The position numbers were made by a program, and so were the translations under genes. A stretch of 64,000 nt of DNA, taken from Kaistia defluvii. GTDB lineage: Bacteria > Pseudomonadota > Alphaproteobacteria > Rhizobiales > Kaistiaceae. The stretch's first letter is position 1, and each line of letters opens with the position of its first letter. The DNA lies in contig NZ_JAPKNI010000001.1 in the NCBI RefSeq assembly GCF_026343955.1, positions 310,001 to 374,000 of the forward strand, given 5' to 3'. This document shows positions 16,488 to 38,709 of this stretch, piece by piece. The notes below the pieces were generated by a model. That model was given only the letters and a program-made list of their open reading frames with translations, had not been told where the DNA came from and did not search any database.

Positions 16488-17456
16488 ATGCAGCACGCAA
16501 AGCTCATCATCGTCGGATCCGGCCCTGCCGGTTACACCGCCGCCATCTATGCAGCCCGCGCCATGCTGGAACCGATGCTGATTGCCGGCGTCCAGCCTGG
16601 CGGCCAGCTCACCATCACCACCGATGTCGAGAACTATCCGGGCTTCGCCGACGTCATCCAAGGGCCCTGGCTGATGGAGCAGATGCGCGCCCAGGCCGAA
16701 CATGTCGGCACCAAGATGGTCTCCGATCACATCGTCGAGGCCGATCTGTCGCAGCGCCCCTTCATCCTCAAGGGTGATTCCGGCGAGGTCTACGCCGCCG
16801 ACACGCTGGTGATCGCCACCGGCGCGCAGGCGAAGTGGCTCGGCATCGACAGCGAGCAGAAATTCAAAGGTTTCGGCGTTTCCGCCTGCGCCACCTGCGA
16901 CGGCTTCTTCTATCGCGACAAGGAGGTCGTGGTGGTCGGCGGCGGCAACACGGCCGTCGAGGAAGCGCTCTATCTGGCGCATATCGCCAAGAAGGTGACG
17001 CTGATCCATCGTCGCGACCACTTCCGGGCCGAGCGCATTCTGCAGAACCGCCTGTTCGGGCTCGATAATGTCGAGGTCATCTGGGATACGGTCGTCGACG
17101 AGGTGCTCGGCAAGACCGGCTTCCCGCCTTCGGTGACCGGTGTCCGGCTCCGCAATGTCGTGACCGGCGAGGTCAGCGAGCGCGAAACCCATGGCGTGTT
17201 CGTCGCCATCGGCCATGCGCCGGCCGTCGACATCGTCCGCGGCCAGCTCGACCTGAAGCCGTCCGGCTATATCTGGACCGCGCCGGATTCGACCGCGACC
17301 AGCATTCCCGGCGTTTTTGCCGCCGGCGACGTGACGGATGAGACCTTCCGCCAGGCCGTGACCGCGGCGGGACAGGGCTGCATGGCGGCGCTTGAGGCGG
17401 AACGCTGGCTGGCCATCCATCCGGTTGTGAACGAGACCGCAGCCGCCGCCGAATAA
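16488..17456 (+). CDS. trxB: Thioredoxin-disulfide reductase
   Basis: FAD/NADPH enzyme that reduces thioredoxin. The 322-residue product has the FAD-binding LIIVGSGPAGYTAAIYAA, the redox-active pair in VSACATCDGF (Cys134 and Cys137), the NADPH-binding VVVVGGGNTAVEEALYL and HRRDHFRA, and the second FAD motif GVFAAGDVTDETFRQAVTAAGQG. The ATG at 16488 gives the conserved N-terminus; the in-frame ATG at 16413 would add 25 atypical residues. The ribosome site is weak. lsrB follows after 42 bases, so the two are probably co-transcribed. Confidence 0.97.
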   Translation: MQHAKLIIVGSGPAGYTAAIYAARAMLEPMLIAGVQPGGQLTITTDVENYPGFADVIQGPWLMEQMRAQAEHVGTKMVSDHIVEADLSQRPFILKGDSGEVYAADTLVIATGAQAKWLGIDSEQKFKGFGVSACATCDGFFYRDKEVVVVGGGNTAVEEALYLAHIAKKVTLIHRRDHFRAERILQNRLFGLDNVEVIWDTVVDEVLGKTGFPPSVTGVRLRNVVTGEVSERETHGVFVAIGHAPAVDIVRGQLDLKPSGYIWTAPDSTATSIPGVFAAGDVTDETFRQAVTAAGQGCMAALEAERWLAIHPVVNETAAAAE

Positions 17457-17498
17457 ATGCAATAGTAGGGCTGGTGCTGCGGAGGGGGCTGTCCGATC

Positions 17499-18389: not shown

Positions 18390-18428
18390 CCGCATCGCTA
18401 CGAAAACAGGCACGGATTCGTGACAATT

Positions 18429-18454
18429 CCGGGACGAACTCGCCCGGTATTTTT
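18429..18454 (+). terminator. Terminator of trxB-lsrB
   Basis: Stem CCGGG/CCCGG (18429-18433 with 18443-18447) followed by TATTTTTATTG, 40 bases after the lsrB stop. The stem is short but the T run is good. Confidence 0.65.
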
Positions 18455-18581
18455 ATTGTATTCTTGAGCCTGCCGATTTTGGGGTGAAGTGGAGAAATTC
18501 TTTCCACGGGACCGAATGTTTCGCCGAAATTTCACGGCCAACTCGACGCAAGGCGAACGGATCGTTGCGTCATATCAAAAT

Positions 18582-18598
18582 TGCATAGCTGAGATGCA
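18582..18598. promoter_or_regulatory. Candidate LsrB/VtlR binding dyad
   Basis: Perfect inverted repeat TGCAT-N7-ATGCA ending ten bases before the -35 element of the sRNA promoter, about 46-62 bases upstream of the predicted start. This is the usual place for a LysR activator site. The link to LsrB is inference from position and from the known VtlR-AbcR circuit. Confidence 0.55.
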
Positions 18599-18608
18599 CC
18601 GCTGCTGG

Positions 18609-18637
18609 TTGATTAGGCATCCTGATCAATCCATATA
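18609..18637 (+). promoter_or_regulatory. Sigma-70 promoter of the AbcR-like sRNA
   Basis: TTGATT (18609-18614), a 17-base spacer and CATATA (18632-18637) predict a transcript start near 18644. Confidence 0.6.
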
Positions 18638-18643
18638 CGGGAC

Positions 18644-18790
18644 AGTTGATGCGTTGGGCCCCTTGCTCCCTCCTCCCTGCGAAGGGTTCGACCTCAGCTG
18701 TTCCCCTCTGGAAGGTGTTTGCTGCGCATTTCCCTGCCGCAGCAACAAAGACTTAGCCGGGCCTCGCAAGAGTGCCCGGCCTTTTCTTTT
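18644..18790 (+). ncRNA. abcR: AbcR / alpha-r15 family trans-acting small RNA
   Basis: Three features define it. First, a hairpin whose loop carries CTCCCTCCTCCC (18666-18677), the anti-Shine-Dalgarno motif of the alpha-r15/AbcR family. Second, a hairpin GCTGCG/CGCAGC (18721-18726 with 18738-18743) whose loop exposes TTTCCCTG; a further CU-rich patch TTCCCCTC lies between the two. Third, a strong intrinsic terminator. AbcR RNAs bind Hfq and repress many ABC-transporter mRNAs at their ribosome sites. In Agrobacterium the abcR genes lie beside a LysR gene of the same group as the one upstream here. Expected length is about 140-147 nt. Only one copy is seen, whereas several rhizobia have two in tandem. 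The 5' end is inferred from the promoter. Confidence 0.82.
18756..18790 (+). terminator. Terminator of the AbcR-like sRNA
   Basis: GCCGGGC (18756-18762) pairs with GCCCGGC (18774-18780), followed by CTTTTCTTTT. Confidence 0.9.
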
Positions 18791-18855
18791 CTGAGCCGAG
18801 GTTCCGCATTTCTGCCGGCGCCAGACCTCAGATATTGCTCAGGGATTGAGCATGC

Positions 18856-19827
18856 TCACATATAGAGCGGCTCGCTCTCCATGCCCTTGTAGAGCCCGGC
18901 GACGAATTCCCCATAGCCGTTGAACAGCTTCGTCGGCACACGCTCATTGGTGCCGATCACGGTCTCGGAAGCCTGGCTCCAGCGCGGATGCGGCACCTCG
19001 GGATTCACATTCGCCCAGAACCCGTATTCCGAGGATTGCAGCTGCTGCCAGAAATTCACCGGCTGCTCCTCGACGAAGCTCACCTTGACGATCGACTTGA
19101 TCGATTTGAAGCCGTACTTCCACGGCGTGTGCAGGCGGATCGGCGCGCCCATCTGCTTCAGCAGCGGCTTTCCGTAGACGCCGGTCACCATGAAGGCCAG
19201 CTCGTTCGTCGCCTCGGCCATGGTCAGGCCCTCGACATAGGGCCAGGGATAGAAGGGCTGGTTCTGCCCCGGCGCCATGGCCGGATCCAGGAAGGTCTCC
19301 ATCCGGATGTATTTCGCGCCCGACAGCGGCTTGGCGAAGGCAACGAGGTCGGCCAGCGGGAATCCGGTCCAGGGAACCGTCATCGACCAGGCCTCGACGC
19401 AGCGATGGCGATAGAGGCGCTCTTCGAGCTTCATGGCCTTGAGGAGATCGTCAATGTCGACCGTCTTCTCCTTTTCCACCATGCCGCCGAACTGGATCGT
19501 CCAGGGCCGGATCTTCAGCGCCTGCGCCGCGTCGGCCAGCTGCTTGTCGGTGCTGTATTCATAGAAATTGTTGTAGTTGGCGTTGATCGTCTCCGGCGTC
19601 ACAGGGCGCTCGATCGTGTAGCGCGGATTGCGCTTGGCCGGATAAAGCCCGGCGCTCGGATCGGTCTCGGCGGCGTGGGCGATGCCCGGCTGCGACAAAG
19701 CCCCCGCCGCAATGCCGACAGTCCCCATGCCGGCCGCGGCCAGGATTTCACGCCGGTTGAGAAAGACCGATTCGGGTGTCGCCCGGCTCTCGGGAATTTC
19801 CCAGCCGCGCTTGCGACGAATAAGCAT
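18856..19827 (-). CDS. msrP: Periplasmic methionine-sulfoxide reductase, catalytic subunit MsrP
   Basis: Molybdopterin enzyme (formerly YedY) that repairs methionine sulfoxide in periplasmic proteins. The 323-residue product has a twin-arginine signal (NRREILAAAGMGTVGIAAG), the Mo-coordinating Cys143 in YRHRCVEAW, and family motifs WTIQFGG, ETFLDPAMAPGQ, GLTMAEATNELAFM and GAPIRLHTPWKYGFKSIKSI. The heme partner MsrQ, usually the next gene, is absent; the space downstream holds the sRNA instead. Molybdate for its cofactor could come from the ModABC system at 42.5-45.2 kb. It is divergent from the aminotransferase gene across about 200 bases. Confidence 0.96.
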   Translation of the reverse strand: MLIRRKRGWEIPESRATPESVFLNRREILAAAGMGTVGIAAGALSQPGIAHAAETDPSAGLYPAKRNPRYTIERPVTPETINANYNNFYEYSTDKQLADAAQALKIRPWTIQFGGMVEKEKTVDIDDLLKAMKLEERLYRHRCVEAWSMTVPWTGFPLADLVAFAKPLSGAKYIRMETFLDPAMAPGQNQPFYPWPYVEGLTMAEATNELAFMVTGVYGKPLLKQMGAPIRLHTPWKYGFKSIKSIVKVSFVEEQPVNFWQQLQSSEYGFWANVNPEVPHPRWSQASETVIGTNERVPTKLFNGYGEFVAGLYKGMESEPLYM

Positions 19828-35474: not shown

Positions 35475-36470
35475 TCAGTCCGACTGGCGGAAGCTGCGGA
35501 TTCGGTCGAAGGCCACCGCGATGACGATGAAGCTGCCGACGAAAGCGCCCTGCCAGAAGGTCGAGATGCCCAGCAGGATCAGGCTGTTGCGGATGACCTC
35601 GATCAGCGCGGCGCCGACCACCGCGCCAAACGCGGTTCCGACGCCGCCGGCGAGATTCGCGCCGCCGATCACGGTTGCCGCGATCACGGTCAGTTCCATG
35701 CCGGTGCCGAGATTGGTGGTCACGCTGCCGAGCCAACCGGTCATCAGCACGCCGGCGATGCCCGCCGTCAGCGCCGAGATGACATAGACGCCCACCTTGA
35801 TACGCTTCACCGGCACGCCGGTCAGCACCGCCGCCTGCTCATTGCCGCCAATGGCGAAGATGTGCCGCCCCCAGCCGGTCCAGCGGAACACGAAGCCGGC
35901 GATCAGCGCCATCACGGCCAGCACGATGAGCGGATTGGCGATGCCGAGCGTGGTGCCGCCGCCGAGTTGCAGCAGCAGCGCCTGGTCCGGGCCGAACTGG
36001 TAGACCATCTTGTTGTTGGACAGCACCAGCGCCATGCTTCGGGCCACCGAAAGCATGCCGAGCGTCACCACGAAGGGCGGCATCCCGACATAGGCGATCA
36101 GCACGCCATTGACGATACCGACGAGAATGGCGGCGACCAGCGCCAGCGCAATGCCAACCGCGAGCGGATAGCCGGCGCTCATCACCAGGCCGGTGACGAT
36201 CGCCGAGAGGCAGAGCGTCGAGCCGACCGAAAGGTCGATGCCGCCGGAAATGATGACCACGGTCATGCCGATCGCGACGATGCCGACAAAGGCAAAGTTG
36301 CGCGTCACGTTGAACAAATTGTTCTTCGTCGCGAAGGTGTCGGTCATGAAGGTCAGCGCGATGCAGGCCAGCACCGCCGCCAGGAAAACCCAGAAGGTCT
36401 GGCGCGACAGCAGCCAGCTCAGCGTGCTGTGCGTCTGGTGATTGATGGTGTCGTCGAGCGAAACAGCCAT
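35475..36470 (-). CDS. Ribose/CUT2-type sugar ABC transporter permease
   Basis: A 331-residue polytopic membrane protein with the BPD_transp_2 signature: about eight to ten helices, GMTVVIISGGIDLSVGSTLCL near the middle, VLIAYVGMPPFVVTLGMLSVAR, GNEQAAVLTGVPVKRIKVGVY (the cytoplasmic EAA-like loop) and GAVVGAALIEVIRNSLILLG. It forms the transmembrane part of an importer with the ATPase encoded 33 bases upstream on the same strand. The substrate is a sugar or polyol but is not determined by the sequence. Confidence 0.9.
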   Translation of the reverse strand: MAVSLDDTINHQTHSTLSWLLSRQTFWVFLAAVLACIALTFMTDTFATKNNLFNVTRNFAFVGIVAIGMTVVIISGGIDLSVGSTLCLSAIVTGLVMSAGYPLAVGIALALVAAILVGIVNGVLIAYVGMPPFVVTLGMLSVARSMALVLSNNKMVYQFGPDQALLLQLGGGTTLGIANPLIVLAVMALIAGFVFRWTGWGRHIFAIGGNEQAAVLTGVPVKRIKVGVYVISALTAGIAGVLMTGWLGSVTTNLGTGMELTVIAATVIGGANLAGGVGTAFGAVVGAALIEVIRNSLILLGISTFWQGAFVGSFIVIAVAFDRIRSFRQSD

Positions 36471-36503
36471 TTGTAACGTCCTCCCTCTTCCTTTCGCTCG
36501 ATG

Positions 36504-37244
36504 TCAGGCGCGCTCGAGCGCGCCGGTGATCAAGGCCGTCACCTCTTCCGGGGAACTGTCGGCGATCCGCTTGTCCGCCACTTTCGTGCCACGCCGCAGC
36601 ACCACGATCTTGTCGCAGACGGAGAACACGTCCGGCATGCGGTGGCTGATCAGGATCACGGAGATGCCCTGGTCGCGCAGGCGCCGGATCAGGTTGAGCA
36701 CCTCGGCAACCTGGCGCACGCTGATCGCCGCCGTGGGCTCGTCCATCAGCACGATCTTCGAATCGGAGAGCCGTGTGCGGGCGATCGCGACTGCCTGGCG
36801 CTGCCCGCCCGACATCTGCTTCACCAGGTCGCGCGGCCGCGTCTCCGACTTCAGTTCCTTGAACAGCGCCGCGGCGCGCTTGTACATCGTCGCGTAGTCG
36901 AGGATGCGGATCGGACCGAACCCGCGCTTCAGTTCGCGGCCGAGAAAGACGTTGGCCGCCGCCGTCAGATTGTTGCAGAGCGCGAGATCCTGATAGACGA
37001 CCTCGATGCCGTTCTCGCGCGCCTCGACCGGCTTGTGGAAGTGGACCTCCCGGTCCAGCACCCGCATGGTGCCATGCGACGGCGGAAAATTGCCGGCGAT
37101 GATCTTCACCAGCGTCGACTTGCCGGCGCCATTATCGCCCATGAGCCCGACGACTTCGCCGGGTCCGATGGTGAGCGAAACGTCGTTCAGGGCCTGAATC
37201 GCCCCGAAATGCTTCGATATGCCCTTGAGTTCCAGGACAGTCAT
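36504..37244 (-). CDS. Single-domain sugar ABC transporter ATPase (FrcA-like)
   Basis: The 246-residue ATPase has one nucleotide-binding domain: Walker [14 protein letters not shown]-loop VVYQDLALCNNLT, signature MSGGQRQAVAIAR, Walker B IVLMDEPTAAI and the H-loop ILISHRM. CUT2 family ATPases normally have two fused domains (about 500 residues, as GguA in this window); single-domain versions such as FrcA of rhizobia are the closest parallel. The start at 37244 is preceded by GGGAGGAG; the upstream ATG at 37289 would add 15 odd residues. It is divergent from the binding-protein gene. Confidence 0.9.
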   Translation of the reverse strand: MTVLELKGISKHFGAIQALNDVSLTIGPGEVVGLMGDNGAGKSTLVKIIAGNFPPSHGTMRVLDREVHFHKPVEARENGIEVVYQDLALCNNLTAAANVFLGRELKRGFGPIRILDYATMYKRAAALFKELKSETRPRDLVKQMSGGQRQAVAIARTRLSDSKIVLMDEPTAAISVRQVAEVLNLIRRLRDQGISVILISHRMPDVFSVCDKIVVLRRGTKVADKRIADSSPEEVTALITGALERA

Positions 37245-37719
37245 CCCGGCGCTCCTCCCTGCAACGCGGGCCGTTGGCCGGCCCGTCATTTCCCTGATGT
37301 CCGGTGCGGCGACGCCGCCCGGGTCTCTTTTTACCCATATTGGCGCGCCCGACCGCCGTCAACTTTAACATCAGACAAATACCGGAACGATGCCGTAGAG
37401 GCAGACAAGCTCTATTTCGCCGACCTGGACCTACGGTCGAAAATTCGCCCACCCAGATAGTATACTGATATGAATATAGGCCTGCCACGCCACGCAACTG
37501 CATTGCAACAAATCTTCTCGCAACGCAGCATTGAACTTTCGTAGGATTAATCGGATTGACTTTGTTCGCTTTCGGAATTTAGTTGGTTGCGTCCGCCGAT
37601 ATGTCAGAGGGCCCCAACTCGTTCGCGCCTCGATGACCGGGAACACCCGGGATCGGGCAATGCGAGACTTGCGTCGGGTGGCGGACGACGGATTTCTATT
37701 GTCTCGGGAGGACAACAGC
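37245..37719. other. 475-base divergent control region of the sugar transporter
   Basis: Non-coding space between the divergently transcribed ATPase-permease and binding-protein genes. It is A+T-rich at 37340-37600 and carries the rightward promoter described separately. No regulator gene adjoins it, so the controlling factor is encoded elsewhere. Confidence 0.6.
37556..37584 (+). promoter_or_regulatory. Candidate promoter of the sugar-binding protein gene
   Basis: TTGACT (37556-37561), a 17-base spacer and TTAGTT (37579-37584) would give a 5' leader of about 130 bases. The -35 is good, the -10 weak. Confidence 0.4.
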
Positions 37720-38709
37720 ATGAAGAAGACACTCGCGATACTGTCGCTTGCCACAACCTGCCTGGCGCTGAGCCTGGGTGCGGCACGCGCGGAAGACAAG
37801 GTCCTTGCCATCGTTGTGAAGGGCCTCGACAACCCCTTCTTCGAGGAGATCAACAAGGGCTGCCAGAAGTGGAACGCCGAGAACCAGGGCAAGGGTTATA
37901 CTTGCCTTTACACGGGTCCTGCTTCCAGCAACGATGAAGCCGGCGAAGTGCAGATCGTCGATGACCTGCTGACGAAGGGCGTCGCGGCGATTGCCATCTC
38001 GCCGTCCAACGCGCCGGCCATGGCCAATCTGCTGAAGCAGCGCGCGCCCACCATTCCCGTGATGACGGTCGATGCCGACCTGAACAAGGAAGATGCCGCG
38101 CTCCGCAAGGCCTATCTGGGGACCGACAACTACCTGATGGGCGTCAAGATGGCCGAGGAACTGCAGAAGCTCAAGAAGGGCGGCACCGTCTGCCTTCAGC
38201 TCGGCAACGTCGCCGCCGCCAACATCGCCGCCCGCGCCGCCGGCGTGCGCGACACGCTGGCGGGCGCCAAGGATGTCGACAAGCTGACCGGGCAGAACGG
38301 CTGGACCGAACCGGCGGGCTGCCCGCTGTTCACCAATGACCAGTCGGACCTTGCCAACCAGCAGATGAGCGACACCTTCACCGCCAATCCGAAGCTCGAT
38401 GCCTTCGTGCTGGTCGGCGGCTGGGCCCAGTTCGCCCCGCAGGCCTATGCCCAGGTCACCGATGGCGTGATGGATCGGCTGAAGAGCAAGGACCTCGTGA
38501 TCATCGCCGGCGACACGCTGCCGCCGCAGATCGACGCGCTCAAGGCGGGCCGCAGCATGGCACAGATCGGCCAGCGGCCGTTCGAAATGGGCTACAAGGC
38601 GCCGGACGCCATGATCAAGCTGATCAACGGCGAGCCGGTCGACGAGATCCTGTTCACGGGTCTCGATGTCTGCCTGCCGGAGAATGTCGATACCTGCCTG
38701 GCCAAGTAG
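37720..38709 (+). CDS. Periplasmic sugar-binding protein of the CUT2 transporter
   Basis: The 329-residue product has a signal peptide (LAILSLATTCLALSLGAARA) and a ribose-binding-type two-lobe fold: VLAIVVKGLDNPFFEEINKGC, IVDDLLTKGVAAIAISPSN, VMTVDADLN, AYLGTDNYLMGVKMAEEL, DAFVLVGGWAQFAP and AGRSMAQIGQRPFEMGYKAPD. Six cysteines in the mature part (such as the pair near GCQKW/YTCLY) could form disulfides, which is more than usual for this family. GGGAGGA eight bases upstream fixes the ATG at 37720. It is followed by a strong terminator, allowing separate high expression from the divergent ATPase-permease genes. Confidence 0.92.
   Translation: MKKTLAILSLATTCLALSLGAARAEDKVLAIVVKGLDNPFFEEINKGCQKWNAENQGKGYTCLYTGPASSNDEAGEVQIVDDLLTKGVAAIAISPSNAPAMANLLKQRAPTIPVMTVDADLNKEDAALRKAYLGTDNYLMGVKMAEELQKLKKGGTVCLQLGNVAAANIAARAAGVRDTLAGAKDVDKLTGQNGWTEPAGCPLFTNDQSDLANQQMSDTFTANPKLDAFVLVGGWAQFAPQAYAQVTDGVMDRLKSKDLVIIAGDTLPPQIDALKAGRSMAQIGQRPFEMGYKAPDAMIKLINGEPVDEILFTGLDVCLPENVDTCLAK

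Follow-up and report, generated by a model that had tools for sequence, protein, structure and literature searches.

The LsrB-AbcR circuit is already known, and the excerpted sources describe AbcR biology from plant symbionts and pathogens whose two copies respond to different inputs. The excerpted text of PMC8844928 reports that LsrB binds PabcR1 and that removal of the motif causes a more than 22-fold loss of activity; it places the box GCAT-N3-TG-N3-T at -61 to -49 of PabcR1 of S. meliloti. For A. tumefaciens, the same box and the gene order trxB-vtlR-abcR are given in the passages of PMC7486931 that bear on it. The second seed motif of the RNA, M2, is defined in an excerpt of PMC5461406, and the part of PMC3712013 at hand states multiple AbcR copies per genome for Rhizobiaceae and Brucellaceae.

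We analysed a 64,000-nt stretch (the window) of a Kaistia genome (Kaistiaceae, Hyphomicrobiales), in which trxB is followed by a LysR-type gene (lsrB/vtlR), a small RNA (sRNA) stretch and then msrP on the opposite strand. Judged from sequence comparison, the sRNA stretch very probably holds a genuine AbcR1/ar15 orthologue, present in one copy and with a promoter of the LsrB type. An AbcR/alpha-r15 sRNA directly 3' of lsrB/vtlR with an LsrB-type box is what the initial annotation had proposed, and this has support from homology and synteny as well as from the box and the two seed motifs. A LysR-type dyad, a -35/-10 pair with 17-base spacing, two hairpins and a strong terminator had been placed within 18582-18790, and all of them are found there; the promoter pair is conserved relative to the box in homologs, and the terminator stem counts as the third hairpin. 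The features are as follows.

16488-17456, plus strand: trxB, thioredoxin-disulfide reductase (NCBIfam TIGR01292, 404.5 bits, cut-off 343.45; start codon picked by eye)
17474-17498, plus strand: ribosome-binding region of lsrB, containing GGAGGGGGC (17481-17489) and predicted to pair with the SL1 loop
17499-18389, plus strand: lsrB/vtlR orthologue, LysR-type regulator of 296 aa with one cysteine, C269
18582-18598, plus strand: predicted LsrB/VtlR box, dyad TGCATAGCTGAGATGCA, by sequence match
18609-18637, plus strand: promoter with -35 TTGATT (18609-18614), 17-base spacer and -10 CATATA (18632-18637), at a conserved distance from the box in 66 homologs
18642-18790, plus strand: AbcR/ar15-like sRNA gene, predicted about 142-149 nt, start about 18642-18644, end about 18785-18790
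18642-18701, plus strand: hairpin SL1, loop UCCCUCCUCCCU at 18667-18678, which carries M1/aSD1 (CCUCCUCCCU)
18700-18709, plus strand: M2/aSD2, GUUCCCCUCU, CU-rich, at the foot of SL1, with GUUCCC at 18700-18705
18720-18744, plus strand: hairpin SL2, loop UUUCCC at 18729-18734, near-invariant among ten near relatives
18756-18790, plus strand: intrinsic terminator, stem 18756-18765/18770-18780, then CTTTTCTTTT
18856-19827, minus strand: msrP, convergent neighbour (NCBIfam NF003767, 419.4 bits, cut-off 207)
36504-37262, minus strand: sugar-type ABC ATPase (36504-37244) and its ribosome site GCAGGGAGGAG (37252-37262), candidate target by prediction

The LysR-type gene is called lsrB/vtlR because its product is 60.8% identical to the LsrB that adjoins tandem ar15 RNAs in a genome of family f23 (locus L085), and also from its position 3' of trxB and 5' of the sRNA. 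NCBIfam gives LysR families only for this protein, none above its cut-off among the matches listed. The closest lsrB loci are those of a Hyphomicrobiales MAG (99% protein identity), of Kaistia species (93-97%) and of a record titled Mesorhizobium sp. BR1-1-16 (93%). The start of the sRNA was placed from the reported box position (-61 to -49) together with the ar15 match: with the window box at the distance reported for S. meliloti, the predicted start is 18644, which is the first base of that match.

Nowhere in the window does an Rfam family score at or above its cut-off, and the covariance-model check that the initial annotation had named falls short of the cut-off for ar15. A relaxed Rfam search of 18390-18860 returns ar15 (RF02345) as the best of eight listed matches, at 18644-18784 over the full model length (22.6 bits, gathering cut-off 40, E 0.019; at genome scale, E 0.047). 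The relaxed ar15 model also weakly matches unrelated control genomes, 12 of 14 and, in a second control, 3 of 14, so that the 22.6-bit match alone would not suffice and, with the cut-off not reached, membership rests on comparative tests. We attribute the score below the cut-off to divergence. Five Kaistia loci, among 20 searched, give no ar15 match at E 0.5. A possible second copy at C12:427803-427903 (ar15 22.5 bits; the overlapping other strand 17.6 bits) was rejected, since it sits where a reading frame has its 3' end, includes a terminator-like hairpin and is missing the core motif.

For the comparative tests 87 homologs were assembled, of which 81 are left once 6 duplicates are dropped. 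The first alignment, A1, holds 34 homologs from lsrB-linked and ar15-search loci; it was gathered using the core motif, and its invariance at that motif is therefore circular. Model R1, built from A1, kept the terminator helix only (7 pairs) and is thus mostly a sequence model, trained mostly on lsrB-linked copies. Model R2 comprises 29 sequences with 16 pairs kept. The members of family f23, which we infer to be Rhizobiaceae-like and which carries RF02345 matches up to 127 bits, were left out of R2 to avoid circularity. When R2 is run on five f23 genomes, its 12 best matches (27.7-46.8 bits) are exactly the 12 loci above the Rfam ar15 cut-off, followed by two further matches at 22.4 bits. This recovery of 12 of 12 loci supports homology to recognised ar15 RNAs. 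Two same-order homologs that adjoin lsrB, L120 (42.5 bits) and L135 (40.4 bits), pass the ar15 cut-off themselves and belong to R2, and so form a bridge between the two groups. The scores of the window locus with our own models, 124.4 and 118.6 bits, are high by construction, as its sequence is part of both.

We regard it as improbable that the sRNA belongs to another family with CU-rich loops (alpha-r14/NfeR1, SorX/SorY or the anti-hemB type) and merely resembles AbcR. The next relaxed matches after ar15 are indeed anti-hemB (18.5 bits), SorX (16.9 bits) and SorY (15.0 bits), in a list that omits one overlapping match from the same clan as a listed family; four homologs (L086, L088, L131 and L140) have sub-cut-off SorX or SorY scores about equal to their ar15 scores, and NfeR1 is likewise activated by LsrB and has aSD motifs, as the excerpted text of PMC10746234 describes. 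Against this, ar15 scores highest over its full length with the AbcR M2 motif GUUCCC in place, the window RNA has one of the three identical CCUCCUCCC motifs that are the hallmark of alpha-r14, and the 12 best R2 hits in f23 genomes are the ar15 loci.

An AbcR1 orthologue is also what the upstream region points to. Positions 18583-18595 match the published VtlR box GCAT-N3-TG-N3-T exactly. The pattern TGCATANCWGNNWTGCA, drawn up after relatives had been inspected, has one exact match in the 4.9-Mb, 21-contig genome, namely the dyad at 18582-18598; with one mismatch it occurs at two other places, and the reversed-pattern control at 1. With a box consensus derived from relatives, a score of at least 11 of 14 is reached in 66 of the 81 distinct homologs and, outside A1, in 37 of 52; about 3 of 725 random windows reach it. 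All but one of the 66 boxes (65) lie 56-70 bases 5' of the RNA, and the strict published box stands at that position in 33 of 81. Among 80 lsrB loci, a strict box occurs within 500 bases 3' of lsrB in 22, compared with a mean of 3.1 and a maximum of 8 in 200 resampled sets; the opposite strand of the same stretches has it in 10 loci and far windows in 4 and 3. The promoter keeps its place relative to the box: in the 66 homologs with a box score of at least 11, positions +27 to +29 from the box start are T, T and G in 64, 63 and 62 cases, and at +50 to +55 CATATA are the majority letters (40-55 of 66 each). A generic sigma-70 scan gives nothing at its threshold for the promoter at 18609-18637.

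Synteny and box were examined in 61 of 84 hits of the genome scan, 30 of them the best-scoring and 31 picked for family spread, which leaves 59 distinct loci, the window included, after identical ones are removed. In 40 of the 59, lsrB lies directly 5' of the RNA on the same strand (gap 75-537 bases). The remaining 19 are without an lsrB scoring above 300 bits in the fetched stretch, which as a rule covers 1.5-3 kb upstream (in L174 the stretch ends within lsrB, leaving a piece of it), yet a box score of at least 11 is retained by 13 of them; the switch thus seems to have moved along with the RNA. Two homologs of family f28 (L161:2595-2729 and L174:2674-2810) have TTCCC in place of CTCC in SL1, keep the LsrB box and have no lsrB directly upstream. 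A Faunimonas homolog with a perfect box (L026:473-610) lies on the strand opposite lsrB, about 2.4 kb before the lsrB start. A further reading takes the conserved element as the 3' untranslated region or the terminator of the trxB-lsrB operon, with or without processing; it is slightly less probable again than membership of another family. The sRNA does lie 252 bases 3' of lsrB on the same strand, with no terminator found between them by a scan that also missed the terminator of the RNA itself. Set against it are the box, -35 and -10 that the RNA has to itself, conserved with their spacing fixed, and the 19 homologs that lack such an lsrB, with their 13 retained boxes.

The anatomy largely fits an AbcR1 orthologue. 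The fold of 18641-18790 has z = -4.61, with 0 of 200 shuffles equally stable, and has three hairpins with aSD1/M1 in the loop of the first, as in AbcR/alpha-r15. The SL1 loop contains CUCCCU; the outermost pair of SL1 is found in the window sequence only. The initial annotation had named two CU-rich loops, and both are present, but it had overlooked a further CU-rich stretch, M2 at 18700-18705. There the G closes SL1, and in the predicted fold M2 is only partly free, which counts against the AbcR reading: 18701-18708 are unpaired with a mean probability of 0.63, a weak helix with GGA competing. GUUCCC is found in 72 of the 81 homologs and in 43 of the 52 outside A1. The terminator was overlooked by the simple scan, probably owing to a bulge in its stem. 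When homologs are folded singly, all 78 sequences open to the test (3 of the 81 have no CTCC) carry a CTCC motif in the loop of the first hairpin, as against 127 of 390 shuffled controls, for which one motif position was tried and not any as in the real test. SL2 carries UUUCCC in its loop in Kaistia and has the tip UCCCUG in L009 and L088. A second copy in genome G172 (L166:1682-1820) keeps the M2 core, has no CTCC in SL1 and no lsrB in the fetched stretch.

Compensatory changes are seen in the SL1 stem in an alignment of ten near relatives, that is, the window and nine others including the Hyphomicrobiales MAG and the record titled Mesorhizobium. The structure counted here is the window's own fold, which favours that structure: 11 cells show two-sided changes (0 of 500 shuffles as high), the covariation score also beats the shuffles, and 98.0% of cells are paired versus 28-46% with partners slid. 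The pairs changed on both sides (3) and the further pair types (12) are not clearly above shuffles (172 of 500 and 61 of 500 respectively). From column 57 on, 83 of 90 columns are invariant versus 37 of the first 56, so that SL2, linker and terminator look strongly constrained in Kaistia. That the stretch instead encodes a small protein is hardly credible: the window does have an open frame of 101 codons at 18489-18794, yet the same frame gives 0, 46, 79, 81, 89, 91 and 134 aa from the first start in seven near relatives, and the alignment shows single-base insertions and deletions and changes that keep base pairs.

The sRNA is the only full-length copy found by model search of the genome. R1 gives one strong match in its own genome, which is the locus; the next, at 19.4 bits, covers the terminator only, and two weak matches of 13.5 and 10.5 bits nominally span the model at a length of 51-53 bases. 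Across the genus there is one full-length match in each of 14 of 14 genomes (102.8-127 bits). A scan of 199 genomes of the order finds a match at E ≤0.01 in 135, many of them terminator-only, and full-length matches below 1e-6 in 73 genomes from 20 families, part of the training sequences coming from the same groups as the scanned genomes. One copy is present in 65 of the 73, two in 5 and three in 3, a tally in which copies may be missed by the stricter filters of the genome scan and from which G102 (positions 50-138 only) was left out. Counted by strong full-length matches, a single copy is found in 65 of 68 genomes outside f23 versus 0 of 5 in f23, where two or three copies are present (the f23 genome G186 is without such a match); the other multi-copy genomes are in f44, f45 and f50. 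The initial annotation had read one copy as a departure from the usual pair: the RNA is single in this genome as it said, but a single copy is common in the order. The several copies listed for AbcR are a habit of two families and carry no mechanism; here there is one full-length hit.

Pairing was predicted for the SL1 loop, M2 and the SL2 loop against the start regions of 56 window genes, which were called by a rough base-composition rule and of which some are doubtful. lsrB ranks first (-25.3 kcal/mol), the sugar-type ABC ATPase second (-25.1) and modC third (-23.0). The predicted targets are the lsrB mRNA and a sugar ABC operon, with sugar ABC genes at 35475-38709. At the ribosome site of the ABC ATPase, GCAGGGAGGAG is perfectly complementary over 11 nt to the SL1 loop region. 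Among 14 fetched loci, made up of 13 orthologues and one distant paralogue, 7 retain it, counting that of the window, although strong ribosome sites are conserved anyway. In the genome it occurs three times, as antisense of the RNA itself, at this ribosome site and at a further place on C20, the same number as its reversed control. The ribosome sites of chvE and modA, which the initial annotation had singled out for this check, do not stand out (ranks 31 and 53 of 56). Altogether the nine identified ABC genes of the window are not clearly enriched (ranks 2, 3, 6, 12, 15, 31, 38, 53 and 54 of 56), and because they are so spread, the argument for transporter targeting here draws more on homology than on the predicted pairings.

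The predicted pairing of the RNA with the lsrB ribosome site suggests negative feedback. In 22 loci, each with its own loop, lsrB pairing has a mean of -15.7 kcal/mol versus -11.9 for 68 neighbours (Mann-Whitney P 8e-5). lsrB ranks first in 15 of the 22, three of which have no rival gene, and is near or at the bottom in L026 and L007. As the loci are related and the gene starts guessed, we treat lsrB feedback as a lead. The portions of PMC8844928 and PMC7486931 that were available mention neither feedback nor autoregulation, and the open-licence literature yielded nothing on this RNA in Kaistia or on AbcR-lsrB feedback.

The neighbouring trxB had also been taken to tie the RNA to redox state. 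The adjacency is real and reported as conserved, but LsrB has the single cysteine C269 with no C144 partner, and the redox tie of the locus is weak. The excerpt of PMC11975290 states that C273 matters for peroxide resistance of A. tumefaciens and proposes a C144-C273 disulfide. By alignment C269 of the window LsrB corresponds to C273, and there is no cysteine at position 140 (C144 in A. tumefaciens). In 96 aligned LsrB sequences, a set that includes window copies and near-duplicates, a cysteine is present at 269 in 23 and at 140 in 8. With one cysteine a disulfide within one LsrB chain is impossible here; single-thiol sensing or a bond between LsrB chains is possible.

Similar elements are found beyond the order. 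Hairpins with CU loops, CCUCCCUG stretches and terminators lie 3' of lsrB in Sneathiella (L064, L071; Sneathiellales), Oceanibacterium (L044; Sneathiellales), Magnetovibrio (L075), Minwuia (L059), a Kiloniellales MAG (L063) and others. Over 80 lsrB loci, AbcR-bearing ones included, the lsrB strand has 98 occurrences of CCTCCC within 1 kb 3' of the gene (55 loci) and the other strand has 21 (14 loci). R2 has matches spanning the model to units in these loci and in L066, L072 and L077 (18.7-35.2 bits). Of 31 sources searched with R2, 21 have a match and 10 have none (L030, L032, L053, L058, L060, L061, L062, L069, L079 and L080); apart from the window and f23 loci, all matches lie within about 1.2 kb 3' of lsrB, that in L031 on the other strand. 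By Rfam, L071:4588-4659 is SorX (50.4 bits, cut-off 46.6), the sole match at cut-off in 20 such loci. On this weaker evidence, homology of the lsrB-linked RNAs beyond the order is plausible. Outside Hyphomicrobiales, three loci have three tandem CU-loop RNA units 3' of lsrB: L064:4027-4630, L071:4023-4660 and L076:4016-4637. A second dyad, TG[TC]TGC-N3-GCA[AG]CA, follows the LsrB-like box by about 67-70 bases in L064, L071, L075, L076 and L080, and is perhaps the first hairpin of the RNA there. Rather tentatively, we raise the idea of an ancient self-limiting unit of Alphaproteobacteria in which LsrB would activate a CU-loop RNA that silences transporters and pairs with lsrB as well as transporter mRNAs; most of the Hyphomicrobiales with this unit would have kept a single copy, Rhizobiaceae-like genomes would have multiplied it, and Sneathiella would have three in tandem, one of them recognised as SorX. 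If this were true, AbcR and SorX would share an ancestor at the lsrB locus.

Taken as a whole, we hold with good confidence that the locus is an AbcR1 (alpha-r15) orthologue which would be activated by LsrB and would pair with transporter Shine-Dalgarno regions, and that is the only full-length copy found by model search of the genome. Judging from the conserved box and the published LsrB/VtlR work, LsrB made from the gene just 5' would bind the box, which at 18582-18598 lies some 60 bases ahead of the transcript, and would activate the promoter at 18609-18637. The resulting RNA of about 145 nt would end at the terminator near 18785-18790. By analogy with AbcR elsewhere, M1 in the SL1 loop and M2 (GUUCCC between SL1 and SL2) would pair with Shine-Dalgarno regions of transporter mRNAs and block ribosome access, so that uptake would be reduced, and lsrB itself would come under negative feedback through the predicted pairing at its ribosome site. 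The analysis extends the known circuit to this group, gives its copy number across the order and a consensus for box and promoter, and yields leads on feedback and on a class-wide range. A genus with a single LsrB-linked copy would be a clean setting in which to see the undivided circuit. From the comparison it also seems that the family ranges more widely than the Rfam cut-off implies, the LsrB-box and promoter consensus can be used for scanning, and a feedback loop on lsrB is raised as a possibility.

Among the described systems, SorX (RF02784) shares with the window RNA a CU-rich stretch, a GACU-like linker and a GC-rich terminator in the alignment, while the window RNA scores 16.9 bits with its model, under the gathering cut-off of 46.6. 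NfeR1 (alpha-r14), as covered in the excerpt of PMC10746234, likewise has three hairpins with anti-Shine-Dalgarno seeds, is LsrB-activated and has transporter targets; it carries one identical CCUCCUCCC per hairpin, three in all, whereas the window RNA has one CCUCCUCCC, one GUUCCC and one UUUCCC loop. In Brucella abortus, AbcR2 is the sRNA activated by VtlR and also has M1 and M2 seeds (excerpt of PMC5461406), and the second copy lies on the other chromosome, outside VtlR control (excerpts of PMC7486931 and PMC5461406). The closest system is AbcR1 of S. meliloti and A. tumefaciens (alpha-r15, RF02345), so far as the excerpted sources describe it. That system is a tandem pair of 121 and 114 nt with an arsR-type neighbour, whereas the window RNA is a single copy of about 145 nt by prediction, with msrP as convergent neighbour, a larger SL2 with its own CU-rich loop and an ar15 score of just 22.6 bits. 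Both have three hairpins with M1/aSD1 in the SL1 loop, M2/aSD2 GUUCCC between SL1 and SL2, an LsrB/VtlR box at the reported distance, and the RNA gene directly 3' of lsrB.
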